A stretch of DNA of 24,902 bases from a virus. Positions 10,116 to 24,902 of this stretch are shown one piece after another. The DNA lies in IMG/VR virus record IMGVR_UViG_3300031539_003894, positions 1-24,902 of that record; one strand, given 5' to 3'. The first letter of the stretch is position 1, and every line of letters starts with the position of its first letter. A model generated the notes under the pieces. It made no database searches and had not been told where the DNA came from. It saw nothing but the letters and a program-made list of their open reading frames with translations. The position numbers and the translations under genes were made by a program.

Positions 10116-10353
10116 AATATGCTCCTTTATAAAATCCTTCTCTAACAGGATCTTCCCATTTGGGATAGTTTGGTATTTCGTGTTCTCTATCATTTGAACA
10201 CTCAAATAATAATTCGGGGGTATCCCAAAAACCCCTTTGGTGGGCATCATCCCTGACTATCTTTCCTTTTTCAAGACGGAAATATTTGTCTTCGACGTGA
10301 TACCTGAGTGTGACTTCTGCTTTGCAGATTGGACAATATCTGTTTTCAAACAT
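10105..10353 (-). CDS. Small putative zinc-binding protein
   Basis: An 82-residue protein, ATG start. It begins MFENRYCPICKAEV, with Cys7 and Cys10 as a CxxC knuckle; Cys52 and His58 could complete a metal site. The end is aromatic and charged (YPKWEDPVREGFYKGAYYDR). The start lies 97 nt inside the preceding gene in another frame, a long overlap; the stop overlaps the folE2 start by 11 nt. An in-frame TGA sits 6 nt before the ATG. The CPIC motif supports this frame as the real one here. Function unknown. Confidence 0.65.
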   Translation of the reverse strand: MFENRYCPICKAEVTLRYHVEDKYFRLEKGKIVRDDAHQRGFWDTPELLFECSNDREHEIPNYPKWEDPVREGFYKGAYYDR

Positions 10354-10652
10354 TTTGGTTCACTCCATAAATTTTCTGGGTCGAATTTAACAGCTTGAAT
10401 GGGGTCGATTTTTTCTTCTATATTGGTATATTTGATTGGCCGGTTAGCTATTTCCTCTTTAAAGAAATCGTTAATAGGAGGTTTTTTCATTCCGAAATTA
10501 TAACGAAAGTCGGAATAGTATTGTTTATACCAAAGTTCTCTATCTCTACGAAAATAGTCCTCCTCGGTTACAACTTTATAATCGGTTGAGAGGTTGGTAC
10601 AAGATGATGTTGCCTCGTACCAACCCCACCTCTTCTCATTAGGAACTCCCAC
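10257..10652 (-). CDS. Hypothetical protein with an overlapping 3' end
   Basis: About 131 residues when started at the GTG at 10652, which has AGGAG 9 nt upstream; a TTG at 10661 is too close to that SD. The start overlaps the end of the RNA polymerase beta gene by 14 nt. The first about 100 residues look like real protein, rich in aromatic residues (KRWGWYEATSSC, LWYKQYYSDFRYNFG). The last about 33 residues (from EPKCLKTD onward) share DNA with the start of the 82-aa zinc-binding gene and have a Ser/Lys/Thr-rich look typical of shadow translation. A shifted or naturally overlapping end is possible. No family recognised. Confidence 0.5.
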   Translation of the reverse strand: MGVPNEKRWGWYEATSSCTNLSTDYKVVTEEDYFRRDRELWYKQYYSDFRYNFGMKKPPINDFFKEEIANRPIKYTNIEEKIDPIQAVKFDPENLWSEPKCLKTDIVQSAKQKSHSGITSKTNISVLKKER

Positions 10653-13600
10653 GATAATCAACTCCTAAGACTGTAAGATAAGAGTTCAACAGTTTAACAG
10701 ATTCAGGCATTGGGTCTAAATCTTTTGAGTCTTCTATACCAACTCTACCCGGGTCAATGCAGTTTCTGATGTAATCGTTCTTCAAATCTATACAATCTGA
10801 TTTTGTTGTCAGAAATTCAAATAAATTCTTTGGAGCATCATGACCAATAATACATGCTGTTTCCATTTCACCACATCTTTGTCCACCTTTGTTTTTTCGA
10901 CCCCCTAATGGTTGCAAGGTTCTTTTCGCATATGACCCGATTCCCCTTGCTGCTAATTTTTCTTCTGCTATATGAACCATTCTGAAGAAATAAAGATATC
11001 CGGCTGCAATATCATTTAATAGATATTTTCTTGCAATAGGATCATATATTTTATATTTAAAAGTAGATCCTGTATATTGTAATGCTTGAGTCAAATCTTT
11101 TAATTGACAAGATTCAAATGGAGGCTGAATAATCGACAGAGTTTCAATAAATTCTTCATCTATTTTTTTCGGCAGTTGCTCTATGAATTGTTTAATATAC
11201 CATTTATCTTTTGTTTTGTCAATTATATCAATGTATCCTAACAGATATGACTTAAGATCTTCTTGACTTCCTTCTTCTAATATTTTTAGAAGGTTTTGTT
11301 GTAGATCATATAAAGACATTGACAAATGTAACTCAAATAATTGACCGATATTCATACGAGAGATTATACCCAATGGATTGATGCATATATCAAGATGTCT
11401 TCCATCTGGCAGTTGTGGCATTTTATCATGTGGTAATATTCTTGATATAACTCCTTTGTTTCCATGTCTATTGGCAATTTTATCCCCGACCTTGATTGAT
11501 CGAACATGAATGCCATACATTTCAACATAAATACCGTTAACCCTTTCTTTCTTATTTTTATATTTACCTACGAAAGAAAATAATTCTAAGTCTTTCTCTC
11601 TGATGAATTTAACAGCTTGATCTCGGGGTAGTTTCTCTTTAACGATAGATCTCAGAGCTAATTCTTTTTCTTTTTGCTTTTCAATAGTTTTCTCTACCCA
11701 TTCTTTATATTCTGGAATGTCTCCATTCCATTCGTTAGCAAATATTTTTACACCTGAAATGATATAAGATTTTTCTGCTTCCAAAGGTGTTGCTTCTGAA
11801 AAAACTGAATATAAATCATCTGCTGATAGAGTTTTCATAATTGCATACGGATCTCCCTGTGCGACTCTATCAAGAGTACTTGGTAATGGTTTATATTCAT
11901 CGTTTGTTAATGTCAATAAAACCTTATGGGGAGGAATAGTAAATGATAAATCTTTGAAATGGGCTGAAGTGAATGTTTCTTCATTTACTAACCTGTCGGA
12001 TATGATAATTCCATCTTCATAGTTATGACCATAATAAATCATAACTCCTGTTAGAAGATTTCGGCCGAAAGTGATTTCGCCATTCTGAACAAAGTTGCTT
12101 TCAGCTAATATTTCCCCAGCTTTGAATTTGCTACCTACACTGACATAAACTTTCATTAAATCCATATGTTCAACATAAATATTTCTATATGAAACGTCAA
12201 AGATGTCAACCGTTTTATCATCATAAACAACCATTAAATATTTTTCATCAAGGTGAACGACCTCACCATCTTTTTTAGCACACTTGATAAATTGTGTATG
12301 CTTTGTATATAAACCTTCACACCCGGATTTAATCATCGGTTGGTCAAAGTCTTTTAACATGATTGCTTGCCTCATTTGTGATGATGCCATTTGTAATCTT
12401 GTTTGATCATCATGCTCACAGAATGGGGTAAACGACACAGGTATTGAAATGGGTTGTTTCTCGCATATATCGCTTGTAAAACGGAGTTCGTCATCCAACT
12501 TGACATTAGGGATGAGGTTTTGTAGAACACCGCAATTATCGCGGTCTGGGGTGTCTACTGGACAAATACGACCGAACATTGTTGGACATATATCCCTTAA
12601 ATGTTTAGGAATGTTTTCCCTTTTAAATCCACCGGGACCCAAAAGACTTATCCTTGATAATTTGGTTAATTCTTCAATTGGGTTAATTGAAAAATCGAAC
12701 TGAACAATATCTGATACATTACATTCTGTTAATATCATAGATGAATTAATATTGAATTTTGGAGCTTTTGATGTTCTGTTTGAAAAGCACATATCGAAAA
12801 TAATTTTTGAAAGCTTTGCAAATATCATATATTCAAAACATCTAACTCTTTTATTTATAAATAGAGTATCATCTACATCTCCTGTTGCGATTGTATGAAC
12901 CAACTCGTCTAACAATGATCCTGTTTGAAGTAAATTTTTTGTAAATATATCAACTTGCGGAATTAAATCAAGAGCATATACAATATCATGCCCTTTTGAT
13001 TTAGAATTATATCTTGAATACATACGACCTATCTCTAATATAAAATCGTCCTGTGTGTCGGTTTTTAATTCATCGTAAATCATTTTACATTCAGATACTA
13101 ATATATCCATCAACTCGATTTTACCTAAGTCATCTAATTTGACATTTGCTAAATCAAATTTCTTGATCATTTCGTCAACCCCAAAATATGCAAACATCAA
13201 GATAGATAACGGAACCTTTTTTCCCAAAAAACTTACTTTGATAAATGGTTGTTCTCTATCTTTGAAGATCATTAGGGTTGCGACATTGGTTCTTAATTTA
13301 ATATTTTCTCCTCTTGTAACAATGGGGATATCAAATAGTTGAAATAAAGGGATTTTTCTACGCCCGTTTATTACAATATAATTATCGTCAACTAATTTAG
13401 GAAGATGTAAACTCAAATCAATATTTGCTGTTCCCTTTTGCAATTTAATTGCAAGGGTTTGTTTTATCGTCTTTGATAATTCTCCAGACGAAAATCTTGA
13501 TTCCTTTATGTCCAGTTCATTCAACTGGAATCCTAAATCTATTGCAGGTTGGAGTATTTGTCTTGTTACGGGTAAAATCTGTTTGTAGTCATTCACTCGA

Positions 13601-13659
13601 AGTGTGAAGATGTTTTTATCTTCATTTTGAATCTTAAAGATTGGATTAATTATGTTCAA
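10639..13659 (-). CDS. DNA-directed RNA polymerase beta subunit-like protein
   Basis: A 1006-residue single-chain beta homologue, the catalytic partner of beta'. Conserved blocks appear in the usual order: RISLLGPGGFKRE (336-348) with FGRICPVDTPDRDN (362-375), the rifampicin/fork-loop region; GHNYEDGIIISDRLV (544-558); VGDKIANRHGNKGVISRILP (724-743) with two conserved Lys; PDGRHLDICINPLG and SRMNIGQ (751-773); and LQPLGGRKNKGGQRCGEME near 920-940. It lacks much of the bacterial lineage-specific length (about 1200-1350 aa), but the chain is not split, unlike beta in phiKZ-like and AR9-like phages. The start is TTG, with GGAGG 7 nt upstream inside the last codons of the 58-aa gene. It follows the beta' gene, the reverse of bacterial rpoB-rpoC order. 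Confidence 0.97.
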   Translation of the reverse strand: MNIINPIFKIQNEDKNIFTLRVNDYKQILPVTRQILQPAIDLGFQLNELDIKESRFSSGELSKTIKQTLAIKLQKGTANIDLSLHLPKLVDDNYIVINGRRKIPLFQLFDIPIVTRGENIKLRTNVATLMIFKDREQPFIKVSFLGKKVPLSILMFAYFGVDEMIKKFDLANVKLDDLGKIELMDILVSECKMIYDELKTDTQDDFILEIGRMYSRYNSKSKGHDIVYALDLIPQVDIFTKNLLQTGSLLDELVHTIATGDVDDTLFINKRVRCFEYMIFAKLSKIIFDMCFSNRTSKAPKFNINSSMILTECNVSDIVQFDFSINPIEELTKLSRISLLGPGGFKRENIPKHLRDICPTMFGRICPVDTPDRDNCGVLQNLIPNVKLDDELRFTSDICEKQPISIPVSFTPFCEHDDQTRLQMASSQMRQAIMLKDFDQPMIKSGCEGLYTKHTQFIKCAKKDGEVVHLDEKYLMVVYDDKTVDIFDVSYRNIYVEHMDLMKVYVSVGSKFKAGEILAESNFVQNGEITFGRNLLTGVMIYYGHNYEDGIIISDRLVNEETFTSAHFKDLSFTIPPHKVLLTLTNDEYKPLPSTLDRVAQGDPYAIMKTLSADDLYSVFSEATPLEAEKSYIISGVKIFANEWNGDIPEYKEWVEKTIEKQKEKELALRSIVKEKLPRDQAVKFIREKDLELFSFVGKYKNKKERVNGIYVEMYGIHVRSIKVGDKIANRHGNKGVISRILPHDKMPQLPDGRHLDICINPLGIISRMNIGQLFELHLSMSLYDLQQNLLKILEEGSQEDLKSYLLGYIDIIDKTKDKWYIKQFIEQLPKKIDEEFIETLSIIQPPFESCQLKDLTQALQYTGSTFKYKIYDPIARKYLLNDIAAGYLYFFRMVHIAEEKLAARGIGSYAKRTLQPLGGRKNKGGQRCGEMETACIIGHDAPKNLFEFLTTKSDCIDLKNDYIRNCIDPGRVGIEDSKDLDPMPESVKLLNSYLTVLGVDYRGSS

Positions 13660-13661
13660 AT

Positions 13662-13838
13662 TTACTCCTCCTCATACTGTTTTTTAAGACTTTCTAAAAG
13701 TACGTCGTCTTCAATATAATATACTACGCTTTCAGAACAGGCATTTAATATTAACTGACCTAATCGAAGGTCTGGATGTTTATACCAGACCTTCGATACC
13801 ATTCGTAATACTTCATTGATTCTGTTGGGGTCTCTCAT
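13662..13838 (-). CDS. Conserved-looking 58-aa protein between beta' and beta genes
   Basis: The ATG overlaps the TGA of the beta' gene (ATGA) and the TAA lies 2 nt before the beta TTG start, so this small gene bridges the two polymerase subunits. The sequence begins MRDPNRINEVLRMVSKVWYK, continues HPDLRLGQLILNAC and ends with YYIEDDVLLESLKKQYEEE. 'RDP.RI..vL......W...PDLRlgQLI.N' followed by 'YyiEDD.L...L' is a pattern I associate with a small uncharacterised family in bacteria and phages. The terminal Glu codons double as the Shine-Dalgarno of the beta gene. A role with the polymerase is possible by position only. Confidence 0.8.
   Translation of the reverse strand: MRDPNRINEVLRMVSKVWYKHPDLRLGQLILNACSESVVYYIEDDVLLESLKKQYEEE
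13763..13797. repeat. 13-bp perfect inverted repeat with 9-nt loop
   Basis: ATCGAAGGTCTGG (13763-13775) is exactly complementary to CCAGACCTTCGAT (13785-13797). It lies in the 5' half of the 58-aa gene, inside codons for SKVWYKHPDLR, between the beta' and beta genes. There is no adjoining T-run, so it is not an intrinsic terminator. Confidence 0.8.
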
Positions 13839-16519
13839 TCGATATACTCCCCTTTTAAAATTTTATCCATTATACCAGAATATTTTCCTTCGTTAAGAAT
13901 ACCTTGGAGAATACTTCTCTTTGGATTTGAGAATGCCATTGCTAATATCCAACTCTCTTGGTTTGGAACAGATTGAATTGAATAATAATCCGGAGCTATT
14001 AAATGACGATTATTTAATAATCTCCATTTTTGATGATTCTTCCACATTAACTGAGCCACGACACATTCAAAATGGACATGGTAAATATCTTTATCATATA
14101 CTTCAAATAGCTCTGAAACTATATCTGTATATGTTTTATTCTTGAACTTATGCAGGAGCTGAGATACTGATGCAAGATCACCGATAATATCTTTTTGTCT
14201 CATTGACTCTGTTTCGGTGTCCTGTCCTTGTATTACAGCTGAACCTGACGTATGGAATGTCCTGAGAACTAATTGTGTCCCACGCTCACCAAGAGTTTGA
14301 GCAGCTATGATTCCAACGAATCTGCTGTTTAATTTTTTATGTAAATCTCCATAACAAGTCTGACATAATTTGGGTGATTTACATAATATCGGAGTTCGAA
14401 TCCATATAGTTTTTCCGATTATATCTTTGTAATTTTGCTTGGTGATTAACTCAAGAGTTCCTTTATTTGACTGGTATTTGTTGACTAACATTCTAGCTTT
14501 TCTTTCAGTTTTCACATATACTTCCAAACAATCTGTAGTTCCACAATCTTCTAACTCTGTATGAATTTGGAGGTTAGCACAAGTAAAAATTAATTTTCTT
14601 GAAAGATATCCTGATGTTCCTGTATTCAGCGCAATGTCAAGAAGACCTTTTCGGCATCCGTATGTTGAATAAAAGAACTCTTCTTCTGATAATCCTTCGA
14701 CTAAATTATGTTTGATTGGTATTGGCAAAATTTCTCCGTCGAAATTTGATACAAATCCTCGGGTCATGATTATCTGTTTAACCTGGTCCCAACTTCCTCT
14801 AGCACCAGATTCAATCATGTATGCGTATTCAAAGTTTTCTCTTAAAGCTTTTGTAATTCCCTTATTCGATGATGCAACTAATTGTTGTCTGATTGTGTCT
14901 TTCTCATAAATTTTATCCCTTAATAATGTTAAGGAATCCGATTGAAAGTTTTCCAGTGACATAGTGCAACCAAATAAAGTTGCATATGTGAAACCTATTG
15001 CTTTTATATTATCCAAAACTTTAACAATTTCATCAATTGGATATCTATCTTTTATATCATTCAAAATGTCTAATAATTTCTTTTCATTGACAACTTCTTC
15101 AACTCTTGGATAATCATCTGGAAGGGAATTGTTGAAAATATTGATGCCTGTTTGATCGTCCAGTTGACCATCAAAGACACCTGTTGTTAAGAAATAAATT
15201 CCTAAAATAATATCCTGACTTGGAGTTGTTGTTAAAGTTTCATTTGATGGACTGCTTAAATTTTTGATAGCTGCAATTTTTTCTATTATTTCATCTTTTG
15301 CTCCTTCTGTTACAGGAATATAAACTGCCATTTGGTCTCCATCAAAGTCAGCATTGAATGGAGGACACACTAACGGATGAATTTTAATAACTTGATCTGA
15401 TGTAATCAAAATTTTAAATCCCAACATTCCTAATCTATGCAAAGATGGTTGTCTATTCAAGATACACATTTGACCTTCAACAACGTCCTTACATATTTTA
15501 AAAAGATCAGGTTTCTTTAATTCAATACATCTATCAACAAAATCAATAGCTTTATTTAACAACTTATATTTACCTACCTGAATAATTCGTTTTGCAATAG
15601 GAAGTTTGAACATTTCTAATGCCATAAAATATGGTAGTTTACATTCATTCAAAGATAATGAAGGATCTGGAGTTATAACAGCTCTACCCGAAAAGTCAAT
15701 CCTTTTTCCTAAAATGTTTCCACGAATTAACCCTTCCTTCTTTGCCATTTTTTCAAGGATACGATTATATAATTCATTTACATCTTTTTGTAGTTGTTTG
15801 AAATAAGTATAATATAAATTTTTATCTCTTTGAATGTTAAGAATTGTTCCTTGCATTAACTCTTTTTTGGTTAAGATTTGAACATAATACCTGTTAATTT
15901 TATCCATTAAGTGTTTGCCGCCTCCGCCTCTTGATGCAGGTCTCAAGTCTGGAGGAAGAACAATTACTTGATGGATCAGAAGACTATCAATATTAAGTAA
16001 AACATTTTTCCAGTCTTCAATTCCTTCCTCTGCCATTTGTGTAGCAACATCAAAAACTAGTTTATAAACGGCATCGGTCTTCTCATAGATTTGCACTCCA
16101 CGGGGTCTTTGTGTTTCATCGTAATTTACAACATGCTCTGTTCCATCAACATACATAAAACTTTTTTCATTTCGCATCAAATCATCAAGAGCTGATTTAA
16201 AAGTTTTACCTGCAATCTCAACTACGAGATCATAAAATAATGGGTTGACCACTGGAATGGGTAATATAATTTTAGCAAATCGAGTTCGTCTAACATCACT
16301 ATTGACAATATCGACGTGGCATAAATCACATTTGCCTCCAGTTTTTGGATTCGAGGGTCCATAATATGTCCCACATTGGCAAGTGTAATTTTTTACTGGT
16401 CCAAAAATTTGCTCGGAAAATAAACCCTCAGGATGGTATTTCTTTTTTGCTATGAGTTTTAGAGACGTCACTTCGTCTAAATTTTCACAAAAGTTTCTAT
16501 AACTAAGAATTTTTGGCAT
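13835..16519 (-). CDS. DNA-directed RNA polymerase beta' subunit-like protein
   Basis: An 894-residue unsplit beta' homologue carrying the active site. Domains in order (numbered from the ATG at 16519): N-terminal zinc ribbon with Cys47, Cys49, Cys64 and Cys67; RGGGGKHLMDKINRYY and RGNILGKRIDFSGRAVI (zipper/lid/rudder region); NRQPSLHRLG then NADFDGDQMAVY (389-400), the three catalytic Asp of the Mg site; bridge helix and trigger loop region GARGSWDQVKQI with GCRKGLLDIALNTGTSGYLSRKL; a second zinc site using the Cys of CGTTDC and CKSPKLCQTC; and GERGTQLVLRTFHTSG near the C-terminus. It is shorter than bacterial beta' (about 1200-1400 aa). The ATG at 16519 has AGAGGAG 10 nt upstream and directly follows the previous stop; a frame-extended ATG at 16546 lacks a better SD. 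No alpha, omega or sigma was recognised nearby. Confidence 0.97.
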   Translation of the reverse strand: MPKILSYRNFCENLDEVTSLKLIAKKKYHPEGLFSEQIFGPVKNYTCQCGTYYGPSNPKTGGKCDLCHVDIVNSDVRRTRFAKIILPIPVVNPLFYDLVVEIAGKTFKSALDDLMRNEKSFMYVDGTEHVVNYDETQRPRGVQIYEKTDAVYKLVFDVATQMAEEGIEDWKNVLLNIDSLLIHQVIVLPPDLRPASRGGGGKHLMDKINRYYVQILTKKELMQGTILNIQRDKNLYYTYFKQLQKDVNELYNRILEKMAKKEGLIRGNILGKRIDFSGRAVITPDPSLSLNECKLPYFMALEMFKLPIAKRIIQVGKYKLLNKAIDFVDRCIELKKPDLFKICKDVVEGQMCILNRQPSLHRLGMLGFKILITSDQVIKIHPLVCPPFNADFDGDQMAVYIPVTEGAKDEIIEKIAAIKNLSSPSNETLTTTPSQDIILGIYFLTTGVFDGQLDDQTGINIFNNSLPDDYPRVEEVVNEKKLLDILNDIKDRYPIDEIVKVLDNIKAIGFTYATLFGCTMSLENFQSDSLTLLRDKIYEKDTIRQQLVASSNKGITKALRENFEYAYMIESGARGSWDQVKQIIMTRGFVSNFDGEILPIPIKHNLVEGLSEEEFFYSTYGCRKGLLDIALNTGTSGYLSRKLIFTCANLQIHTELEDCGTTDCLEVYVKTERKARMLVNKYQSNKGTLELITKQNYKDIIGKTIWIRTPILCKSPKLCQTCYGDLHKKLNSRFVGIIAAQTLGERGTQLVLRTFHTSGSAVIQGQDTETESMRQKDIIGDLASVSQLLHKFKNKTYTDIVSELFEVYDKDIYHVHFECVVAQLMWKNHQKWRLLNNRHLIAPDYYSIQSVPNQESWILAMAFSNPKRSILQGILNEGKYSGIMDKILKGEYIE

Positions 16520-16520
16520 C

Positions 16521-16736
16521 TCAAGAGATCTCCTCTTTTTCTGCAAGTGATTCTAATAAATATTCTGCCAGAATCGTTAAATGCAGTTTGATTTTTTTGG
16601 CTACTATTTTTTCTAATGAAGGCATCAATACTTCCATTATTTTTTGTGCATCTTCTTCTTTAATAATTGTGTCATGTTTATCCAACTCTTCTTTAATTTT
16701 ATCTTGGATATAATTGTCTAAAGGGTGCTTCTGCAT
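16521..16736 (-). CDS. Small helical protein upstream of the beta' gene
   Basis: A 71-residue protein. The ATG at 16736 has AAGGAG 9 nt upstream, preferred over an in-frame ATG at 16766 that lacks an SD. It overlaps the end of the E2-like gene by 38 nt, and its stop is adjacent to the beta' start. It is predicted fully helical and charged (LDNYIQDKIKEELDKHDTII, EVLMPSLEKIVAKKIKLHL), possibly a coiled coil. It has none of the features of an omega subunit. Unknown function; the position links it to either the conjugation cluster or the polymerase. Confidence 0.65.
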   Translation of the reverse strand: MQKHPLDNYIQDKIKEELDKHDTIIKEEDAQKIMEVLMPSLEKIVAKKIKLHLTILAEYLLESLAEKEEIS

Positions 16737-17166
16737 CGTGTATTTCTCCTTTGTCAAAGTTAACATTTATTTTCATAAAACCATCGACTGGTTTTGTTTC
16801 GTAATCTTTTTGATTAGGTCTAAAGTGAGATTCATCAAAATAATAAACTTCAAGTCTATTAATTAAAACATTTAATAGACAATTTATATCCGTAACTTCC
16901 GCACCATACTCCTCATCTCTTAGACAAAGTTCATCTGTATTCAAATCAGCGTTTGGGTGACTTCCGAAAATTCTAACTTCACTTAGTTTGTTGTTGAATC
17001 TTTTAATAATAAGACCTTCTAAATGTAATTTCTCATGAATTTTTGTTATTGTTTTCGGAACTCCATCATCTATAATAAATTTAGGAATTATTTTTCCAAC
17101 GAAAATATCATAATCAATTGATACATTTTCTTTACTTCCTGGTATATATAAATGCTTATGTTCCAT
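16699..17166 (-). CDS. E2-like ubiquitin-conjugating fold protein
   Basis: A 155-residue protein with the hallmark of the ubiquitin-conjugating E2 fold: IFGSHPNADLNTDELCLRD, with His70-Pro71-Asn72 and the candidate catalytic Cys81. In eukaryotic E2s the form is HPN followed by G.ICL with the Cys 8 residues after Asn; here it is 9. Downstream, INCLLNVLINRLEVYY matches the helix after the active site, and FGSHP is preceded by a strand (LSEVRIF), as in E2s. The length equals a minimal E2 (about 150 aa). The predicted role is to accept the activated ubiquitin-like protein from the E1 as a thioester. The ATG overlaps the TAA of the E1-like gene (TAATG), so the two are translationally coupled. The motif is direct evidence; conjugating activity is inferred. 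Confidence 0.75.
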   Translation of the reverse strand: MEHKHLYIPGSKENVSIDYDIFVGKIIPKFIIDDGVPKTITKIHEKLHLEGLIIKRFNNKLSEVRIFGSHPNADLNTDELCLRDEEYGAEVTDINCLLNVLINRLEVYYFDESHFRPNQKDYETKPVDGFMKINVNFDKGEIHDAEAPFRQLYPR

Positions 17167-18065
17167 TATGCTCCTCCTTCTGTTTGTAATATATGAATTT
17201 CATTGTCTATTAGAACTGGTAAAAATATTAAACTTTTACTTTTATTCTTTATAGCATTTTTAAGAACTTCGATAACGTCCTCGGGGTGTTTTAAACTGTT
17301 TTGAGGAATAATCTGATACGTTGTTTTTGCAACCCTTGGTATTTCAAAAACTTCCCTGGCTATCGAACCTCTTTCTTGAACTGCTACTTTAAGAGGAGCT
17401 TTTTTATTTCTATTTAATATAGGTTGTATAACTTCCTCTAATTTTGATATTCTATTTATATTATCATCTGTATCATATATCAAGTCTGGATAAGATTTTG
17501 ATTCTTTAATACTTTTTAACATTACTGATTGAATTATGTCAATATCAATATATTTAATAGATTGTCCTTTTAATAATTCTTCAATAACATTACTACATAT
17601 TAAATCAGTTGCATAAGAAGCTGCTCTACTAATTTCATGTTTTGATAGTTGTATAACATATTCGCCTTTTGGTCTTGTTTGATCTTCTAGTTTCTTTTGA
17701 AAATCGAGTATTAGAAACTTTCCATTGATAAACATCTTCATATCAATATTCAAGTCTCTTTTGCCAAATATATTTCGGCAATCAATTATTAAGTCTGATT
17801 CTGGGAGATCGGTAATACCTTCAATGTAAAACTCTGCTCTTGGTTGAATCTCTATATTATAATTTAAAAGATTACGATATAGTACATGAACTTTTGGTTC
17901 ATCAATATCAATAGGTTGAAATATTCCTATTTCTGTATCTTTTTTATCAACTATATCCTTATCTATTAATATAAGTTTACTAACCTTAGAACATTCTACC
18001 AGATGTTTACAAAGGTGTCCTCCCAACGTTCCGGTTCCAATTACAGTTACAGTGCTGAGATTCAA
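17166..18065 (-). CDS. Second, degenerate E1/ThiF-like Rossmann protein
   Basis: A 299-residue protein with an N-terminal nucleotide-binding Rossmann motif, VTVIGTGTLGGHLCKHL (Gly10, Gly12, Gly15, Gly16), then LILIDKDIVDKKD (Asp35, Asp37) and DLIIDCRN (Asp95, Arg97), as in E1/ThiF/MoeB proteins. Unlike the first E1 in the cluster it lacks the NxxRQ arginine-finger segment and any clear catalytic Cys, so it is probably catalytically reduced. The C-terminal half is an unrecognised alpha/beta extension. TTG start at 18065 with AAAGGAG 9 nt upstream; part of that SD is in a small hairpin. By analogy with heterodimeric eukaryotic E1s it could be a partner of the active E1; this is an inference. 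Confidence 0.7.
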   Translation of the reverse strand: MNLSTVTVIGTGTLGGHLCKHLVECSKVSKLILIDKDIVDKKDTEIGIFQPIDIDEPKVHVLYRNLLNYNIEIQPRAEFYIEGITDLPESDLIIDCRNIFGKRDLNIDMKMFINGKFLILDFQKKLEDQTRPKGEYVIQLSKHEISRAASYATDLICSNVIEELLKGQSIKYIDIDIIQSVMLKSIKESKSYPDLIYDTDDNINRISKLEEVIQPILNRNKKAPLKVAVQERGSIAREVFEIPRVAKTTYQIIPQNSLKHPEDVIEVLKNAIKNKSKSLIFLPVLIDNEIHILQTEGGA

Positions 18066-18076
18066 AGGGTTAATTC

Positions 18077-18120
18077 TCCTTTCGGAAGGATTGGGTGGGG
18101 ACCCAATCGAATCCCCACCC
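18077..18120 (-). promoter_or_regulatory. Overlapping RNA hairpins in the gap after the ubiquitin-like gene
   Basis: The minus strand can form GGGTGGGG/CCCCACCC (18113-18120 with 18093-18100) or the alternative GATTGGGT/ACCCAATC with a CCCC loop (18101-18108 with 18089-18096); they share bases and exclude each other. A third small stem, TCCTT/AAGGA (18077-18090), covers part of the Shine-Dalgarno of the downstream E1-like gene. No T-run follows. This looks like an RNA stability, attenuation or translational control element. Confidence 0.6.
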
Positions 18121-18133
18121 GCCAGGCTCCTAT

Positions 18134-18583
18134 TTAGCAGCCTTTACGACCGGAAGGTTTCATGAACTCAAGAGAATCCCCCACTTTCAATTCATAATCG
18201 CCGGAAACTTCTTTTCCATTAACCAGACCTGTGGAGAGTTTGTCCACGTTCAACACCTCACGCAGGAACTCACCGACTTCGGCAACACTTTTCCCTTCAA
18301 CAGGAAAGGCGCCGGTACTGGCACCACATGATACACGGATTGTGGTTGTGGTTTTTTGACCGAAAGCAGCAGACGGTTTGGTCATAACGCTGTGGCCATC
18401 AAATGCAATACCTTCCAGCTTATCCGAAACATCCGGATTTCCATCGGCCAGCAGGATAGCGTCGATAACGACGTCTTTACGTTTTTTGGTCAATCCCGGC
18501 AGTCCCAGGTTGTCCACACAAAGACGACGAAGCTCTTTAAGATTCATTCCTTCTAAATTTTCACGAGTATATTCATTAGCCAT
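18134..18583 (-). CDS. Ubiquitin-like beta-grasp protein with SAP-like N-terminus
   Basis: A 149-residue protein. Residues 7-46 (RENLEGMNLKELRRLC, then LPGLTKKRKDVVIDAIL) form a SAP/Rho-N-like helix-turn-helix used by many proteins to bind nucleic acid. A short linker leads to a ThiS/MoaD/Prok-Ub-like beta-grasp domain, residues 78-149: TTTTIRVSCG (strand 1), AFPVEGKSVAEVGEFLREVL (strand 2 and helix), LVNGKEVSGDYELKVGD (turn and strands) and SLEFMKPSGRKGC. The tail G-R-K-G plus a final Cys resembles the GxKG ends of PRTRC protein C as I recall them; the extra Cys may be trimmed by the JAB protease. ATG start with AAGGAG 8 nt upstream. GC content is close to 50% while neighbours are near 30%, suggesting high expression or separate origin. 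It is the likely modifier of this conjugation cluster. Confidence 0.8.
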   Translation of the reverse strand: MANEYTRENLEGMNLKELRRLCVDNLGLPGLTKKRKDVVIDAILLADGNPDVSDKLEGIAFDGHSVMTKPSAAFGQKTTTTIRVSCGASTGAFPVEGKSVAEVGEFLREVLNVDKLSTGLVNGKEVSGDYELKVGDSLEFMKPSGRKGC

Positions 18584-18630
18584 TTTAAAATTCTCCTTAC
18601 AAAGTTTAGTTGTTGTTCACGTTCGGCTTA

Positions 18631-19314
18631 TTACTTTAAAGCCCTTGATTGCGCAATCACGGACATCTGTTTCATATCAAAATAAATTTCGGATGCCTCT
18701 ATTTTATTACTGATTACTACGTTGTAAAACACGCCACACATGAGTGTAGCTACCCATACATTTACGAAATATAATTGAGGATCAGACTGAGCTAGCTCTT
18801 CGCAGCTCATTTCCTCAGGTAATTTATCTACGGGATCTGCAATCTCCGGATGATAAGCGCACAAGTCAGGTGTTAAATCTTTACCCCCTTCTCTGACATA
18901 TAGTTGTACGTTACCGTCTGTAAATTCGTTCCCACCAGAAATTAAAGTAACATTATTTAAGTTTTTGCAGTAATTGGATGTGATCATTCTGGTTTTGTGA
19001 TTGTCTACGCATAAGAACACAATATCACCATTTAAAATAACATTGGTGATGTTTGCGTCATTTATATACGAAGGAAAGAAATCTAAATTCAGCCTTGGGA
19101 ATTGGTCTTCTATATCGCCAGCTTTAATCTCAGCTTTATTTCCCATTTGTGTAAATTCTTGTCTTTCGTAATTTTTAGTTTCATATGTATCCCCGTCCAC
19201 TAATGTTAATGTTGAATCTATATCTTTTGCATAGTTTAAGAATCGAGCAATTCTTCCACATAATACTGATCCGACTCCACCGAGTCCAATGATTTTTATA
19301 GATATTTTTTTCAT
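18631..19314 (-). CDS. E1/ThiF-like adenylyltransferase (ubiquitin-like activating enzyme)
   Basis: A 227-residue ThiF/E1-family protein predicted to adenylate the C-terminus of a ubiquitin-like protein. Numbered from the ATG at 19314: IIGLGGVGSVL (Gly10, Gly12, Gly13, Gly15), TLVDGDTYETKNYERQ with Asp40 and the NxxRQ segment (Asn48, Arg51, Gln52), Lys61 region, CVDNHKTRM (Asp104), then LCAYHPEIADP (Cys152) and SCEEL (Cys171), either of which could be a thioester Cys. The ATG overlaps the JAB stop (ATGA) and has GGGAG 6 nt upstream; a longer frame from 19344 lacks an SD. No thiamine or molybdopterin genes are near, so a cofactor-synthesis role is unlikely. The gene lies between JAB and ubiquitin-like genes, which supports a conjugation role. 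Confidence 0.88.
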   Translation of the reverse strand: MKKISIKIIGLGGVGSVLCGRIARFLNYAKDIDSTLTLVDGDTYETKNYERQEFTQMGNKAEIKAGDIEDQFPRLNLDFFPSYINDANITNVILNGDIVFLCVDNHKTRMITSNYCKNLNNVTLISGGNEFTDGNVQLYVREGGKDLTPDLCAYHPEIADPVDKLPEEMSCEELAQSDPQLYFVNVWVATLMCGVFYNVVISNKIEASEIYFDMKQMSVIAQSRALK

Positions 19315-21086
19315 CGTTTTCTCCCGAATTTTTCCATCATCCATTGTAGAGGATTCATATTGGATCTTATCATCTCATCCATATGATGTAGATCTTGCCC
19401 CGGTATCATATTAGCAGGGTTTGGTGGTTCTTCAGCTGCCTGGTAATTGGCTGCTTCTTCGATTGCAACTTGCTCGACTTCGTTTGCGTCTCCTAATAAG
19501 TCCCTGTTTTTTGCCCCCGAGTATTCCACTAGAGCAATTTTGCAGAAAGGGCAGTTGTTATCCTTGATCAATTCTTTTGTAAATTGACTTCCGCATGATT
19601 TGCAATTATAGTGTTCTCCCTTTTTTTCATAGTTAAGGGATTGATCAGGCATTAATAATGTTCCACAGAATGGACATGAGCCACCATCTTTGCCAGTTTC
19701 TAAAAAACTAACATCAAATGTGCTAACACAACTTACACATTTAATTTGCCCTGGTTCATCATCATCGACGGTAAAATCATTTTCCTCAATTAGAGTCATA
19801 TGCTCATCTGATTTACATGATGGGCAAACCATATTACCTTTGATTTCATCTTCATCATCATAGTCAAATGTAACAAGAACATTACATTTTTCACACACAT
19901 ATGATTCTTTATCATCGTCTAGAATTGAGTTCTCTTCAATAGTTCCGTCGTTTTGATCAACTAATAGTTCAGCAACATATTCCACTGCCTTTTCTTTAAA
20001 TGCGCATGTTTTGCAAGGCATATATCTAGAAGGTGTCACTTCTGTAATAACGGGACCTTGATCATGTGCAGGAAATTTAATAGGATCGACTTTTACTCCC
20101 ACATTCTGTGGTGGACGTTTTACATCTTTTTGAACTCCGGCTGCAAGGGCGCCTGGTTTTGTTCGGTCTTTCCATGCATCTGCATCAAAGTTTCTACCCC
20201 AGTTGTTATTATATTTGGGTGCGATCCATTTACCACTTTCCCAATGACCAGCTTGATAATTTCCTCTCCAGCCGCCATATCCGCTCCATGCTGTACCATA
20301 TGAATAAGTAGGTTTGTATTCAACTGTATCCATCCATGATTTCGGACATTGGGCTTTAACATTTTTCTCGCTTGTTATAACATATCGTCTGTCATATTTA
20401 CGATATGATCGGAAAGTGGTTGCTGCATATTTTGTTGTTTCAACCATCTTTCCATTCTCCCATTTATATACTCTGGAGGTTGGAACTTTTTCAACTTCAT
20501 CAATCTCATGATCTAATCTAATTCCTTTTAAATATTCTTCTGGAGGAACTATTGTTCTGTGACCATTTGATACGATTGATGCTGAAATACTTATAAGTTC
20601 GGAATTGAGATTTCCGAATGTGATATGGAGCCCATCAAAGGACTCTTCATCACCTTGATCCGTCCCGGAATGAAACGCAGACATACTTGAATGACTGTGA
20701 ATGTCACCGATCATTGTCCACCCGTCTATAACAATTGATCTATTATAATCGAGCGAGGCAGGACCGACCTTCTGCGCTGGCGGGATAACTTTATATTTTC
20801 GTGTTTGTTCATTGAAGAATAATAATACGATTGCTTCTGACCTATGTTCCTTCTGAACTTCCCGGAAGAAATTAGCAATCTTAGCTATCAATCTTGCAGG
20901 TATCTCTGGAATGTGCATTTTAGCTGTTGCTTCAACACTCTCCAGTATTGATATGGTTTTGACTGGAGATAGACTTTCCATAATCCCTAATCTCTTTTTA
21001 ATAAATACTCCTTCTTTTCCTACAACATAATAAATATCATCTTTTGGCATCTCTTGCGTGCCGTCAGCTATCACTATTGGGAACAT
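19311..21086 (-). CDS. JAB/JAMM metalloprotease fused to multiple zinc ribbons
   Basis: A 591-residue protein. The JAMM signature is complete: Glu84 in SEAIVLLFF, then GDIHSHSSMSAFHSGTDQGD with His130-x-His132, seven residues, Ser140-x-x-Asp143. This zinc isopeptidase family removes or trims ubiquitin-like modifiers. Residues 255-300 are Gly/Trp/Tyr-rich low complexity. Residues 358-515 hold seven CxxC pairs (358/361, 398/401, 421/424, 450/453, 471/474, 495/498, 512/515), enough for three zinc ribbons plus one unpaired pair, alternating with acidic linkers. The tail is helical. Prokaryotic JAB proteins are typically much smaller (about 120-250 aa), so the ribbon array is a large addition, perhaps for nucleic acid or substrate binding. 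TAATG overlap with the upstream 879-aa gene. The protease call is firm; the substrate is inferred. Confidence 0.92.
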   Translation of the reverse strand: MFPIVIADGTQEMPKDDIYYVVGKEGVFIKKRLGIMESLSPVKTISILESVEATAKMHIPEIPARLIAKIANFFREVQKEHRSEAIVLLFFNEQTRKYKVIPPAQKVGPASLDYNRSIVIDGWTMIGDIHSHSSMSAFHSGTDQGDEESFDGLHITFGNLNSELISISASIVSNGHRTIVPPEEYLKGIRLDHEIDEVEKVPTSRVYKWENGKMVETTKYAATTFRSYRKYDRRYVITSEKNVKAQCPKSWMDTVEYKPTYSYGTAWSGYGGWRGNYQAGHWESGKWIAPKYNNNWGRNFDADAWKDRTKPGALAAGVQKDVKRPPQNVGVKVDPIKFPAHDQGPVITEVTPSRYMPCKTCAFKEKAVEYVAELLVDQNDGTIEENSILDDDKESYVCEKCNVLVTFDYDDEDEIKGNMVCPSCKSDEHMTLIEENDFTVDDDEPGQIKCVSCVSTFDVSFLETGKDGGSCPFCGTLLMPDQSLNYEKKGEHYNCKSCGSQFTKELIKDNNCPFCKIALVEYSGAKNRDLLGDANEVEQVAIEEAANYQAAEEPPNPANMIPGQDLHHMDEMIRSNMNPLQWMMEKFGRKR

Positions 21087-23725
21087 TAAATTAGACTCCT
21101 TGGGTCAGTTAAATAGAGAAATGCAGATCCTTCAACAGGAACAAATCCTCCATTAAAGTTAGCGTTTGCAGGAACAAACCCATCAATATCTTGTTGCGAT
21201 TTACTGATTCTCGGATTGGGTATACAGTCGAGTACACATTCATCCTGAAATGATTTATCAGCGGTATACGATTCCAATCCTCCATTTGAATAATAACTTA
21301 ATGGATGATATTTCAGAGATCTAGAATCATTTGTTTGAATCATTAAATAACCATGATCTTTTGATGAATCCGCATAAGATGGTATAACAACATCCCCTGC
21401 TTGAAATTTAATTTTTTTTGGATCTAATGGAGTATGATCCTTAGTTTTCCAGACAGCTGAACTCATTGGAATATGTTTGAATTTCTCCATTACATCTTGA
21501 TACCATAAAGTACAACCGTTTGAACATAATACCAATGGATTTGGACCGTCAACAATAATACCAATAACAATATTAACGTCTTTCATTGGAAAGTTTGAAA
21601 TATTACCATCAGTGGCGATAATCTTTGTTCCTGAACTTAACTCTTCAAACTTAGTTACAATTTTTCTAATATATCCAATCCGAACAATTTGATTAGATAC
21701 AAAGATTTCTTGTGATAGAGTGCTATTTTTATCCATTAATATAAATGATAAGTTTGTATAATCTCCTTTATCTTCAACCTTGAACCCTTGGATTCTTTTA
21801 ATATTTAAAACGCTTAAAGGATCTTTCCAGTTAGCGACAACAACAAGATCACCTATCTTATGTTCCAATAATCCAAAGTGAGTATCAATCTGAAATTTCT
21901 CATTGTTTATAATGAGATTTTTAATATCACTTCTGTTGAGAGTTTCTATTCTGGTATTAGCAAAATGTATATATCCTGATGGGGTTTTGAAAACCTTTTT
22001 TCTTTCTTCATGTTCTTCCATTGGTAATGATATTCTTCGAATCATTCTACCTATTGAAATCATTGAAGGATTAATACACTCAGAACCTTTTTTTACGGCA
22101 AGAGGTGGAAATAATTTTCTTGAAGATTCTCCAAGATTATTTATCGGAATATTTAAATGCCTTCCGGTACGATCTGTGGAGAGAAATTTGAATATCAATT
22201 TGTTTTCTTGCCCAACATCAATGCCATCATAAGAGCATCTTTCTACTTGATGGATCATCGTGTTTCTATTATTTCCTGAGTGTGAATAATAATATTCAGA
22301 ACTTTTCACCAAATCCATCCCATATATATTAGGTTTATCTTGATTAAATAATTGTGCGTTTTCTGGTAGATTTGCAGCTATATAATATTGATTTCCTAAC
22401 CTAACTTCTGGGCGACCATCGAGACCTTTTCTAATATAAAATACTCTTCGATATAATTCTGCTCCAGCTTTATTTGTGTATTTAATAATATCATCACTTT
22501 TAATAACTAGCCCATTATTCATCTTTATACTGGGTAGATATTTTTGGGCTCCTATTCTCTTTTGGAAATAAGATTTTGATATATTATTCAATTTATAATT
22601 GAACAGTTTCCCTTTATATGAAAGGCGAACTTTTTGTGGTTCTTGCCCACTGACTCCTATAAAAGAAACAATATGATATTGTTTTGATTTTGATTCATTG
22701 GTAAATGAGTCTCCTACCTCTGCTCTTAATATATCATTTAGATAAATACTATTAGAAACATCATAATATACAGGATCTACTTTTTTTCTAATTTTTCCGG
22801 TTGTGATTTCCCCAATTTTTACAGGAGATGTAAAAGCTGAAATAAAATCATGGTATATAGTGTCTGGGTTTCTAGCTTTAGAGTGATCACCCATGTATTG
22901 TTTTACGTCTTCGATCAACTGGAAAATATTTTTATTATGGTTTAGCCAATCAACTCGGTATATAAACATTGGATCTAATCTTGATAAGTATTGCCACTCT
23001 AAAAAGTTTGAGATGCCGGCAACACTATCATACGCTTTGATATTGTATGTATAATCTGCATTAAATACACTTGTCCAGAATACATTAATTGTTGCATCAA
23101 CAGCTTCGGCAGCTGTATTATATGTGTCTTTATTAAGGCGACTTCCAAAACATATAGCTTGGTTATCAGAGATGTTAGATAATGGCATTTTTAAAAGGTA
23201 ATCTGATAAACCAATCATAGGATTAACTCTTAAAAATGAGTAACCCGCTTGGATTTGATGACCTCTGTTTATATACATTAGAAATATGACATAAGGAAAT
23301 GCAAGATTCAGTTTATAATAAGATCCTAATTGTGATGACTCCACTCTTTCCTGTGTTAACCATCCTTCTAGTCCGTATTCTTTTAATAGATTTTTAGACT
23401 TTATTTCTGAATACATTAAATCAAAGTTTAATGCCATCGCTACAGTTCTAAATTGGGGTTGTTGTTCGATAACATAGAGATAATCCCCATTACCAATTGG
23501 TTCAACATATCTGCAACCGGACGGAAGGATTTTTGGAGCTTGTAATGTCATCTCAGAATATTTTCTGAGGTAATCCATAGTAGGTAATGTTTTAATTCTT
23601 TTGGTGGGCAGCGCCTGTGTATGATCTTTTCTTGCGACGCTGTCTTTTTGTTCTGCTAATAATAGCGATATGTAACTTGAGTTCATTCGGATATCATAAT
23701 CTTCAAAAAGATCTTTTTCGTCCAT
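21086..23725 (-). CDS. Large protein with N-terminal Prok-E2 (PRTRC protein B-like) domain
   Basis: An 879-residue protein. The first about 60 residues are charged. Residues 64-262 resemble the prokaryotic E2-like family typified by PRTRC protein B: PKILPSGCRYVEPIGNGDYLYV, LAFPYVIFLMYINRG (141-155), then MPLSNISDNQAICFGS with Asn184 and candidate catalytic Cys192, spaced 8 residues apart as in eukaryotic E2s, and later NVFWTSVFNADYTYN (214-228). The remaining about 600 residues are strand-rich with no family I recognise; several sections look like small beta-barrel domains (GDLVVVANW, GDVVIPSYA). PRTRC-B proteins are about 250 aa, so this is a large extension. ATG start with AGGGGAA upstream. 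It overlaps the JAB gene (TAATG), consistent with a shared pathway. Confidence 0.7.
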   Translation of the reverse strand: MDEKDLFEDYDIRMNSSYISLLLAEQKDSVARKDHTQALPTKRIKTLPTMDYLRKYSEMTLQAPKILPSGCRYVEPIGNGDYLYVIEQQPQFRTVAMALNFDLMYSEIKSKNLLKEYGLEGWLTQERVESSQLGSYYKLNLAFPYVIFLMYINRGHQIQAGYSFLRVNPMIGLSDYLLKMPLSNISDNQAICFGSRLNKDTYNTAAEAVDATINVFWTSVFNADYTYNIKAYDSVAGISNFLEWQYLSRLDPMFIYRVDWLNHNKNIFQLIEDVKQYMGDHSKARNPDTIYHDFISAFTSPVKIGEITTGKIRKKVDPVYYDVSNSIYLNDILRAEVGDSFTNESKSKQYHIVSFIGVSGQEPQKVRLSYKGKLFNYKLNNISKSYFQKRIGAQKYLPSIKMNNGLVIKSDDIIKYTNKAGAELYRRVFYIRKGLDGRPEVRLGNQYYIAANLPENAQLFNQDKPNIYGMDLVKSSEYYYSHSGNNRNTMIHQVERCSYDGIDVGQENKLIFKFLSTDRTGRHLNIPINNLGESSRKLFPPLAVKKGSECINPSMISIGRMIRRISLPMEEHEERKKVFKTPSGYIHFANTRIETLNRSDIKNLIINNEKFQIDTHFGLLEHKIGDLVVVANWKDPLSVLNIKRIQGFKVEDKGDYTNLSFILMDKNSTLSQEIFVSNQIVRIGYIRKIVTKFEELSSGTKIIATDGNISNFPMKDVNIVIGIIVDGPNPLVLCSNGCTLWYQDVMEKFKHIPMSSAVWKTKDHTPLDPKKIKFQAGDVVIPSYADSSKDHGYLMIQTNDSRSLKYHPLSYYSNGGLESYTADKSFQDECVLDCIPNPRISKSQQDIDGFVPANANFNGGFVPVEGSAFLYLTDPRSLI

Positions 23726-23728
23726 TCG

Positions 23729-24103
23729 TTATTCCCCTCTATAAAATTTTACAAGTTTAGCAAATTCAATCATTATCTTTTTTGCGGATCTTCCTTCGAT
23801 TCTGTGTGCCTGATACCTTTTCGGCATTTGAGCAACGTCTCTTATATCAGAAATTCTTATTGAATAATAGTTACAAACCCATTCATCCATAGGATCTCTT
23901 TCTAATGACAAGAATGATAATTCTGCTCTGCCTTTGGGAGGAACTGGTAACGCAAGAAATATGTTTGCTCCTTGTGGAACAACTTTAGGATGTGAAATAT
24001 TACCCTGTTCTTCTTTCTTTATCCTTTCACATATTTCTTTGATCTCCTCTGCCATCTCATTCGATTTTACTTCTTTTAAAATATCGTTTAAAATTTTTCC
24101 CAT
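23729..24103 (-). CDS. Hypothetical protein upstream of the conjugation cluster
   Basis: A 124-residue protein, ATG start with TAGGAG 6 nt upstream. The first about 35 residues are a charged helix (ILKEVKSNEMAEEIKEICER), followed by an alpha/beta part with NIFLALPVPPKGRAELSFLS and WVCNYYSIRISDIRDV, ending in a basic helix (RSAKKIMIEFAKLVKFYRGE). No family recognised. It ends 3 nt before the 879-aa gene and is probably co-transcribed with it. Confidence 0.65.
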   Translation of the reverse strand: MGKILNDILKEVKSNEMAEEIKEICERIKKEEQGNISHPKVVPQGANIFLALPVPPKGRAELSFLSLERDPMDEWVCNYYSIRISDIRDVAQMPKRYQAHRIEGRSAKKIMIEFAKLVKFYRGE

Positions 24104-24111
24104 TGTTGCTC

Positions 24112-24426
24112 CTATTTTTTAAAGGGGGTAATCTTGTATCGTTGAGTAGGAGTTTCTAACCAATCGACTCTTTCAAATGGAACTGATCTCCAATCTTTTG
24201 CCTCGAGATCATACACATGAATGATTCCACTCTTTTGCATCAACTTTAATATCCTTGACATATTGACATTCTTTGGATGATCTTTATGTGGAATTTTTTT
24301 GAAATCTAAAGTGCATTTCATTGTCCTTGCATTTCCATCTTTTTTAATAAATCGAACAGTTGCTTCTCCTGCTTCGTATAGAGTTTCCCAAAATTTTACG
24401 GCATTTCTGATCTGTTCTTCTGCCAT
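24112..24426 (-). CDS. SH3-barrel phage protein (DUF2693/WYL_2-like)
   Basis: A 104-residue protein resembling the small SH3-like/Sm-like barrel family widespread in T4-type and large phages (DUF2693, also called WYL_2): VRFIKKDGNARTMKCTLDFKKIP (first strands), then IIHVYDLEAKDWRSVPFERVDWLE (the 'vyDle...WRsfpfdrv' signature). The biochemical role of the family is not established. ATG start with AGGAGG 7 nt upstream, placed over the end of the radical-SAM-like gene region. Confidence 0.8.
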   Translation of the reverse strand: MAEEQIRNAVKFWETLYEAGEATVRFIKKDGNARTMKCTLDFKKIPHKDHPKNVNMSRILKLMQKSGIIHVYDLEAKDWRSVPFERVDWLETPTQRYKITPFKK

Positions 24427-24428
24427 TG

Positions 24429-24902
24429 TTACGTCCTCCTGTCGAGGTGAATTAAGTCTTCACTCCCTTGGTTGTTTCTCTCAATATGCAGACTCATTAA
24501 TAAACATGTATGATTACAACCTTGGCAATGGACTTGTTTATCTTTTGCGATTGCTTTTTCAGCAATAAATGATACCTTTCCATCTGAGTCAATTAGGTTT
24601 GGTATCTTTACTAATTTTGGAGTGTGAGTTCCTCTTATCCGTAAACATAATCTTAGAGTTCCGTCAGCATCAACCGTTACATTATGCACCCCTTTCTCCA
24701 ATTCACAATCCATACTTGAAGGTAAAACGTGCCAGATCATCGGAAGAAGAACTTTTTTCATATGAACATTTAAATCTCTATCTTGTAAAAGTTGAAACAT
24801 ATCAGCTAATTCCGGAGTCTGATTGACTAATAAACTTTTATCTTTTATATCTGAAAAATCATAATACGGACTTTTCGCTATATCAATAAATGTTATATCG
24901 CT
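24429..24902 (-). CDS. Radical-SAM-like protein, C-terminal part (partial)
   Basis: The frame is open from the window edge to a TGA/TAA-type stop at 24429, giving 158 residues that lack the start. An ATG at 24800 lies in the same frame but coding-like sequence continues upstream to the edge (SDITFIDIAKSPYYDFSDI), so the gene begins outside the window. Cys-rich features in the visible part are VTVDADGTLRLCLRIRG and KQVHCQGCNHTCLLMS, a layout typical of SPASM-type auxiliary Fe-S binding regions at the end of radical SAM enzymes. The defining CxxxCxxC motif would be N-terminal and is not in view. Substrate unknown. Confidence 0.6.
   Translation of the reverse strand, partial: SDITFIDIAKSPYYDFSDIKDKSLLVNQTPELADMFQLLQDRDLNVHMKKVLLPMIWHVLPSSMDCELEKGVHNVTVDADGTLRLCLRIRGTHTPKLVKIPNLIDSDGKVSFIAEKAIAKDKQVHCQGCNHTCLLMSLHIERNNQGSEDLIHLDRRT

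Follow-up and report, generated by a model that had tools for sequence, protein, structure and literature searches.

The gene cassette at positions 16699-23725 of the IMG/VR virus record IMGVR_UViG_3300031539_003894 raises the question of whether a bacterial virus can own a complete ubiquitin-like conjugation system and, if so, what it would use it for. The analysed window, 24,902 bases long, covers an IMG/VR viral contig in full, and its long genes lie on the minus strand. It belongs to a tailed phage because it encodes a terminase large subunit (1510-3159; PHROG E 4e-34), which agrees with an earlier sequence-only reading that had described such a pathway in a phage genome. The limits given there also hold, since 16699 is the end of a candidate E2 with an HPN motif and 23725 is the start of a protein termed B. 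Judged from sequence comparison, the cassette quite probably encodes a system for reversible ubiquitin-like conjugation, of the broad PRTRC (class 6d) kind and co-inherited with a phage RNA polymerase (RNAP). The proteins and motifs of the cassette, including the ubiquitin-like protein (Ubl), are as follows:

21086..23725, minus strand: B879, 879 amino acids (aa), PRTRC_B/Prok-E2_D-like protein with a long C-terminal extension (PF14460 and PRTRC_B matches)
23150..23176, minus strand: N184-x7-C192 motif of B879, at the Prok-E2_D catalytic position, without HP
19311..21086, minus strand: JAB591, predicted N-terminal JAMM isopeptidase with a C-terminal CxxC zinc-ribbon array (PRTRC_A and Prok-JAB matches)
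20658..20699, minus strand: JAMM motif H130xH132x7S140xxD143, with upstream E84 (from the sequence)
18631..19344, minus strand: E1_237, candidate activating enzyme, 237 aa (ThiF E 1e-18, PRTRC_ThiF match)
18802..18804, minus strand: codon of E1 Cys181, the predicted thioester cysteine
18134..18583, minus strand: Ubl149, 149 aa, N-terminal Rho_N/SAP-like and C-terminal beta-grasp domain (Pfam, AlphaFold2 (AF2) model, PDB fold search)
18137..18151, minus strand: Ubl tail G145-R-K-G148-C149, with Gly148 as predicted conjugating residue and Cys149 predicted to be removed (homologue tails)
17166..18065, minus strand: ThiF299, second E1-like Rossmann protein with the E1 arginine lost (ThiF E 4.6e-8; PDB matches include MoeB, ThiF and NAE1)
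17925..17939, minus strand: position of the lost NxxRQ in ThiF299 (alignment)
16699..17166, minus strand: E2a, 155-aa E2-like protein (HPN-x8-C motif, PDB profile search, AF2 model)
16924..16959, minus strand: HPN...C motif of E2a, H70 to C81 (sequence comparison)

The E1 search for relatives resulted in 30 and then 77 viral loci. An independent search with RNAP beta' matched more than 500 sequences, of which the best 80 were kept as loci; 62 of these have at least 8 kb upstream. The sample consists of metagenomic contigs. Both E1 and Ubl are present in 55 of the 62 beta' loci, E2a in 56 and ThiF299 in 59, usually in one gene order. The position beside an RNA polymerase had been seen as an oddity of this phage, an idea that this distribution contradicts, and the gene order that was to be sought in other phages recurs in dozens of relatives. 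Such recurrence puts the set far beyond chance. In the most divergent loci (L115, L121 and L122), diverged forms of JAMM, of two ThiF proteins and of E2a are kept; L096 retains ThiF299 and E2a, and L099 and L118 show none of the cassette. An alternative reading of stop codons for the beta' loci without E1 and Ubl changed nothing.

The order by transcription is a radical-SAM/SPASM gene cut by the contig end, WYL_2, g124, B879, JAB591, E1_237, Ubl149, ThiF299, E2a, g81, beta' and beta. The description of this as one overlapping gene train is correct for B/JAB, JAB/E1 and ThiF299/E2a, but not for the Ubl gene, which is flanked on both sides by gaps of 47-68 nt. The dN/dS values (non-synonymous to synonymous substitution rates) against L008, a single genome pair, were 0.09 for E1, 0.13 for Ubl, 0.22 for ThiF299, 0.29 for B, 0.30 for JAB, 0.36 for E2a and 0.09 for beta'. 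By this measure, the cassette is under purifying selection. The Mantel correlations with beta' were 0.85 for E1 and B, 0.84 for Ubl, 0.73 for JAB, 0.71 for ThiF299 and 0.60 for E2a, with no permutation as high. As far as gene content and divergence indicate, the cassette and the phage RNA polymerase are inherited together as a core operon.

The enzymes at both ends of a conjugation cycle were recognised with the motifs expected from the sequence-only reading. The JAMM motif HxHx7SxxD is found as H130-S-H132-x7-S140-xx-D143 in the 591-aa JAB591, which matches Prok-JAB above the cut-off, and the set E/H/H/S/D is kept in all 101 distinct homologues. The E1/ThiF protein with GxGGxG and NxxRQ is the 237-aa E1_237, with GLGGVG and N58-Y-E-R61-Q62. 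Here, R61, D114 and C181 are invariant (97/97 distinct homologues). With catalytic residues that are essentially invariant, the claim of a complete, phage-encoded E1, E2-like, Ubl and JAB set is upheld, and the set is strongly constrained.

The modifier itself, the 149-aa protein ending in GRKGC, had been called a beta-grasp protein, and this is borne out. The Pfam families TGS and ThiS match the C-terminal domain in 23 and 19 of 26 family members, respectively, and the N-terminal helical domain is matched by Rho_N in 22 of 26 (best 3.8e-13). The PDB fold search with the AF2 model found mainly TGS, MoaD, TtuB, FAT10, SAMP1 and ubiquitin, as well as Rho for the N-terminus. According to this model, the C-terminal domain has a beta-grasp fold. 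An x-K-G tail occurs in nearly all of 87 distinct Ubls, 52 of which end exactly there and 15 add one Cys, while the remaining tails have short extensions and a few end in K-A or lack the tail. Precursors with two units (L124, 6702-7715, with the Rho_N/SAP-like domain repeated too) and with three units (L165, 6924-7556) are joined after GRKG. Read from these sequences, the tails and tandem precursors are the architecture of a processed modifier.

Two E2-like proteins with PN...C motifs had been proposed, which is true for E2a with its HPN-x8-C and only in part for B879, whose N-x7-C lacks HP. The B family is matched by PF14460 (Prok-E2_D) in 20 of 24 members (best 3.7e-6) and by PRTRC_B in 8 of 24 (best 0.0065), with the B879 of the window below the cut-off. 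N184 and C192 are kept in 83 of 83 distinct homologues, and a query of the phage collection with B879 gave no match. For E2a, H70 and C81 are invariant in all 71 distinct homologues, most of which also have HPN. The usual spacing from HPN to the cysteine in E2s is +8; E2a has +9. Three of the four matches of the E2a profile to PDB sequences were E2s, aligned through HPN..C, whereas UQ_con matches only one of 25 family members. In the viral structures of BFVD, an E2 of Bodo saltans virus ranks second (E 0.46, not significant). The AF2 model of E2a is confident over the core, and an E2 fold is likely, with weak support from structure search.

The extra paralogue of the sequence-only reading, a second ThiF protein, is present, but it is degenerate. 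The arginine of NxxRQ is replaced, mostly by Asn, in the 70 sequences tallied, which mostly read N-L-x-N-S, and ThiF299 retains the G-rich loop, D35, K58 and D95. E2a and ThiF299 are confined to RNAP-linked loci, and ThiF299 nearly always accompanies E2a. A separate observation concerns the C-terminus of ThiF299 (window 17166-17190, partly over the start of E2a), where even very divergent phages share a conserved ETGAA/GGA. One cause considered was a fixed Shine-Dalgarno sequence serving the E2a start in the overlap, which explains the tail only in part, since the wobble position of the Gly codon varies (GGA/GGG/GGT/GGC) and the tail is kept where the E2a start is not at the overlap.

From the parts, their constraint, their order and their co-inheritance with RNAP, we infer the steps of a pathway, the order of these steps and, above all, its targets. 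First, the JAMM protease would trim the Ubl precursor, which is a tandem precursor in some relatives, after the K-G of the tail. E1_237 would then adenylate Gly148 using R61 and D114 and form a thioester on Cys181. From there, the Ubl could be passed to the active cysteine of B879 (Cys192), of E2a (Cys81) or of both, and finally to lysines of target proteins, from which the JAMM protease could remove it again. ThiF299 would probably be a non-activating E1 partner or adaptor that brings E2a to E1, since the two nearly always occur together and their genes overlap. By analogy, this logic is comparable to that of the active/inactive E1 pairs of eukaryotes.

The Rho_N/SAP-like domain probably keeps the tag, and hence its targets, near nucleic acid. 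Together with the adjacency of the RNA polymerase and the co-inheritance with beta', this points to the transcription apparatus or to proteins bound to DNA or RNA. Virion proteins are still in play because mass spectrometry of particles of Salmonella phage Arash identified its E1 (Gp246), JAMM (Gp247) and B-like protein (Gp248) (PMC10585845, Table 2); their assignment to a Ubl system is made in the present analysis and not in that paper, whose authors warn of possible co-purification of abundant enzymes. Our guess for the likeliest targets is phage transcription or virion proteins, and any specific target class is considerably less than an even bet. In a rather unlikely, more far-reaching reading, a eukaryote-like arrangement arose independently in a lineage of tailed phages, with paired active and inactive E1, an E2 with the canonical HPN-Cys motif and a nucleic-acid-binding Ubl, made as a polymeric precursor in some members; it would modify the phage's own RNAP or template-bound proteins and be essential to infection. 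A proteasome or ClpP partner was rejected as a general feature: a proteasome-like open reading frame (ORF) and ClpP were each found in one of ten large contigs, which gives no support to the idea that a phage protease obligatorily degrades the tagged proteins. The 248-kb contig of L018 encodes a 174-aa proteasome-beta/HslV-like protein (L190:7153-7677) between thymidylate-synthase-like and zinc-motif genes.

Several results weigh against a conjugation system of the PRTRC kind. JAB591 matches PRTRC_A with E 4e-15 and 55.9 bits, below the curated NCBIfam cut-off of 101.8, and E1_237 matches PRTRC_ThiF with E 7e-12 and 45.2 bits, below the cut-off of 144.75; the profile comparisons with plasmid PRTRC_A (98 %) and ThiF (97.8 %), on the other hand, favour the relationship. 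The comparison of Ubl with the PRTRC_C profile is weak, with a probability of 7 %, although it is the best of its row. Structure prediction, a check proposed with the sequence-only reading, was favourable for Ubl149, for which the top 50 matches are mostly beta-grasp with probabilities up to 0.99, but all have E-values of at least 0.1. For E2a, the best PDB match is UBE2N with a non-significant E-value of 0.52. No E3 was identified in the analysis. Finally, in some members (L029 and L031), acidic sequence seemingly follows the N-terminal domain of Ubl or takes its place, so that the arrangement varies.

The cassette is embedded in the following neighbours:

24429..24902, minus strand: radical-SAM/SPASM protein of the same operon, C-terminal part, gene cut by the contig end (in relatives with the complete gene, the product matches PapB-type maturases with E-values down to 7e-15)
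24112..24426, minus strand: small WYL_2 (Sm/SH3-like) protein of the same operon (PF10902 E 2.4e-9; 56 of 62 beta' loci)
23729..24103, minus strand: g124, conserved 124-aa protein of the same operon (48 of 62 beta' loci)
16521..16766, minus strand: g81, small conserved protein in the E2a-beta' interval (44 of 62 beta' loci)
13835..16546, minus strand: RNA polymerase beta' with the NADFDGD motif, following the cassette
10639..13659, minus strand: RNA polymerase beta, adjoining beta' in 62 of 62 loci

A PapB-like radical-SAM/SPASM gene heads the operon in 52 of 62 beta' loci (full-length example L005:3894-4913), and its product could be a modifier of some peptide or protein of the system. No family match was found for g124. 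By gene content rather than by a tree, the RNAP lineage is probably the mReC of Weinheimer and Aylward (2020; PMC7481178), which are Caudovirales contigs whose beta and beta' fall into one deep clade; the window has both subunits, a phage terminase and the IMG/VR origin. Adjoining beta, a folE2 gene for a FolE2-type GTP cyclohydrolase is located at 9225-10250, and a 465-aa ORF of a relative (L190:5312-6709) is tRNA-guanine-transglycosylase-like by eye only. Taken as sequence evidence, the two hint at 7-deazaguanine DNA modification in the lineage.

Three other explanations have to be weighed. Bil acts in anti-phage immunity. So does type II CBASS (cyclic-oligonucleotide-based anti-phage signalling system; PMC11153139, PMC10097602). 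A system of this sort could spoil competing phages or tag and inhibit host immune proteins, and the E1 proteins do weakly match the E1-E2 models of PADLOC. Nevertheless, this is improbable. Defence genes are usually patchy, whereas the cassette is near-universal and co-inherited with RNAP in its lineage, and no CD-NTase or other defence gene was recognised. As PADLOC gave no more than weak E1-domain matches and none for JAB, Ubl, E2a or B, the cassette is neither Bil nor CBASS.

A sulfur-carrier pathway is a little more doubtful still. Here, the E1 would adenylate and thiocarboxylate a ThiS/MoaD-like protein that delivers sulfur to a nucleotide or cofactor, with the JAMM protease serving maturation only. 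The resemblance of the beta-grasp domain to ThiS/TGS/MoaD and TtuB and the metabolic neighbours, folE2 and the radical-SAM gene, would fit. However, the tail is K-G instead of G-G, no rhodanese was found among the Pfam matches and none is fused to E1, and the pathway has no role for two E2-like proteins with conserved cysteines or for tandem Ubl precursors. Given the relative's transglycosylase-like ORF, 7-deazaguanine synthesis is the simpler explanation of folE2. Equally doubtful is a virion assembly or maturation factor like the tail Ubl/JAB pair of lambda, in which JAMM would cut a Ubl while the virion is assembled and conjugation would come second. The Arash proteins in particles speak for it, subject to the co-purification noted above. 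Against it, a protease-only role needs neither the invariant E1 nor the invariant E2-like cysteines, the neighbourhood of the cassette contains no recognisable tail gene, and the family scans of the window gave no NlpC/P60 domain.

Most of what is known of bacterial ubiquitin-like systems comes from plasmids and from defence against phages. The conjugation system proposed here would be owned by a lineage of large bacterial viruses, as part of a core operon with RNA polymerase, and the HPN E2, the degenerate E1 partner and the tandem precursors are features associated with the ubiquitin systems of eukaryotes. Since dozens of relatives keep the catalytic residues, some bacterial viruses probably modify proteins much like our own cells do. 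If active, protein tagging would be a tool of viral infection in bacteria, and these compact systems could be used to study the evolution of the E1-E2-Ubl cascade. In the open-access literature, no paper on complete phage-encoded Ubl systems was found, and the main texts of the RNAP-phage paper (PMC7481178) and the huge-phage paper (PMC7162821) do not mention ubiquitin, ThiF or JAB.

Among known systems, the lambda proteins TAPI/TAPK are a phage tail Ubl and JAMM pair for which no E1 or E2 is described (PMC1779556); Ubl and JAMM are common to both, and NlpC/P60 and the tail context are absent here. Bil, type II CBASS (Cap2-Cap3) and Bub share E1, E2-like, JAB and Ubl proteins or the conjugation logic, and Cap2 and BubCD are among the structures matching the Rossmann domain of ThiF299, but the phage cassette has neither an E1-E2 fusion nor a CD-NTase. 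JAMM and E1 are found in the phages Arash, Bacillus phage KLEB27-3 and gut phage MT835919, the first two of which also have B and a Ubl with GxKG. None of the three belongs to this RNAP cassette, and no counterpart of E2a or ThiF299 was recognised. The Arash locus (L004:50-4539) comprises a Ubl ORF ending in RRTGTKG, the B-like gp248 with an N..C motif, the JAMM gene gp247 and the E1 gene gp246. In the cultured phage vB_BauM_KLEB27-3, gp199 (L003:4718-5425) is a poly-ubiquitin-like gene of four near-identical tandem Ubl units, each with VKAGVKG as its end and Met directly after it, and is located four genes upstream of the PRTRC_A-type JAMM gene gp195 and five upstream of the ThiF gene gp194.

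Of the similar sets named in the sequence-only reading, the PRTRC type is among the closest, together with compact chromosomal B-JAB-E1-Ubl operons, rather than Bil. Plasmid PRTRC (Iyer et al. 2006, class 6d; PRTRC_A, B, C and ThiF) shares the PRTRC_A-type JAMM, the ThiF E1, the N-x7-C of B/Prok-E2_D and the gene order B-A-ThiF. Its PRTRC_C ends in AVGTKG or AAGAKGSHA, compared to AGKKG(C) in the phages, which gives a common A/V-G-x-K-G tail. The comparison of B879 with the plasmid PRTRC_B profile is weak, yet the best of its row, and no NCBIfam match to PRTRC_C was obtained for Ubl. PRTRC_E and PRTRC_F had no match among the window proteins tested, g124, g81 and E2a were rejected as their homologues by profile comparison, and ParB was not among the family matches. 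The phage cassette differs in a Ubl that follows ThiF and carries a Rho_N/SAP-like domain, a JAMM protein with zinc ribbons, a B protein three times longer, the extra HPN-Cys E2, the degenerate E1 and the linkage to a viral RNA polymerase. Due to the missing ParB, E and F, the scores under the curated cut-offs and the three additions, the cassette is a variant relative of PRTRC and not filed as a member.

The compact bacterial operons (L174 from Methylomirabilota, L175 from Falkowbacteria, and L187) have the same B-JAB-E1-Ubl order and Ubl tails of PAGDKG or LAGEKG, but no RNA polymerase, ThiF299, E2a or N-terminal Ubl domain, and their Ubls are 79-95 aa long. These contigs, from metagenome-assembled genomes (MAGs) of the candidate phyla radiation (CPR) and Methylomirabilota, are apparently chromosomal and not classical PRTRC. 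In the E1 tree, whose bootstrap is rough and which has several long branches, the RNAP-linked phage E1s form one supported group (99/96), which also takes in a MAG contig and two viral contigs without visible RNAP. This group is nested in a larger one, that of the compact B-JAB-E1-Ubl sets on bacterial MAG contigs, and the E1s of plasmid PRTRC and Bacillus-type plasmids are separate. Neither E2a nor ThiF299 was found outside the RNAP-linked loci, and the bacterial Ubls lack the N-terminal domain. From this distribution of sequences, the phage lineage appears to have taken up the four-gene set and to have gained three parts: another E2-like protein, a degenerate E1 and, fused to the tag, a nucleic-acid-binding-like domain.

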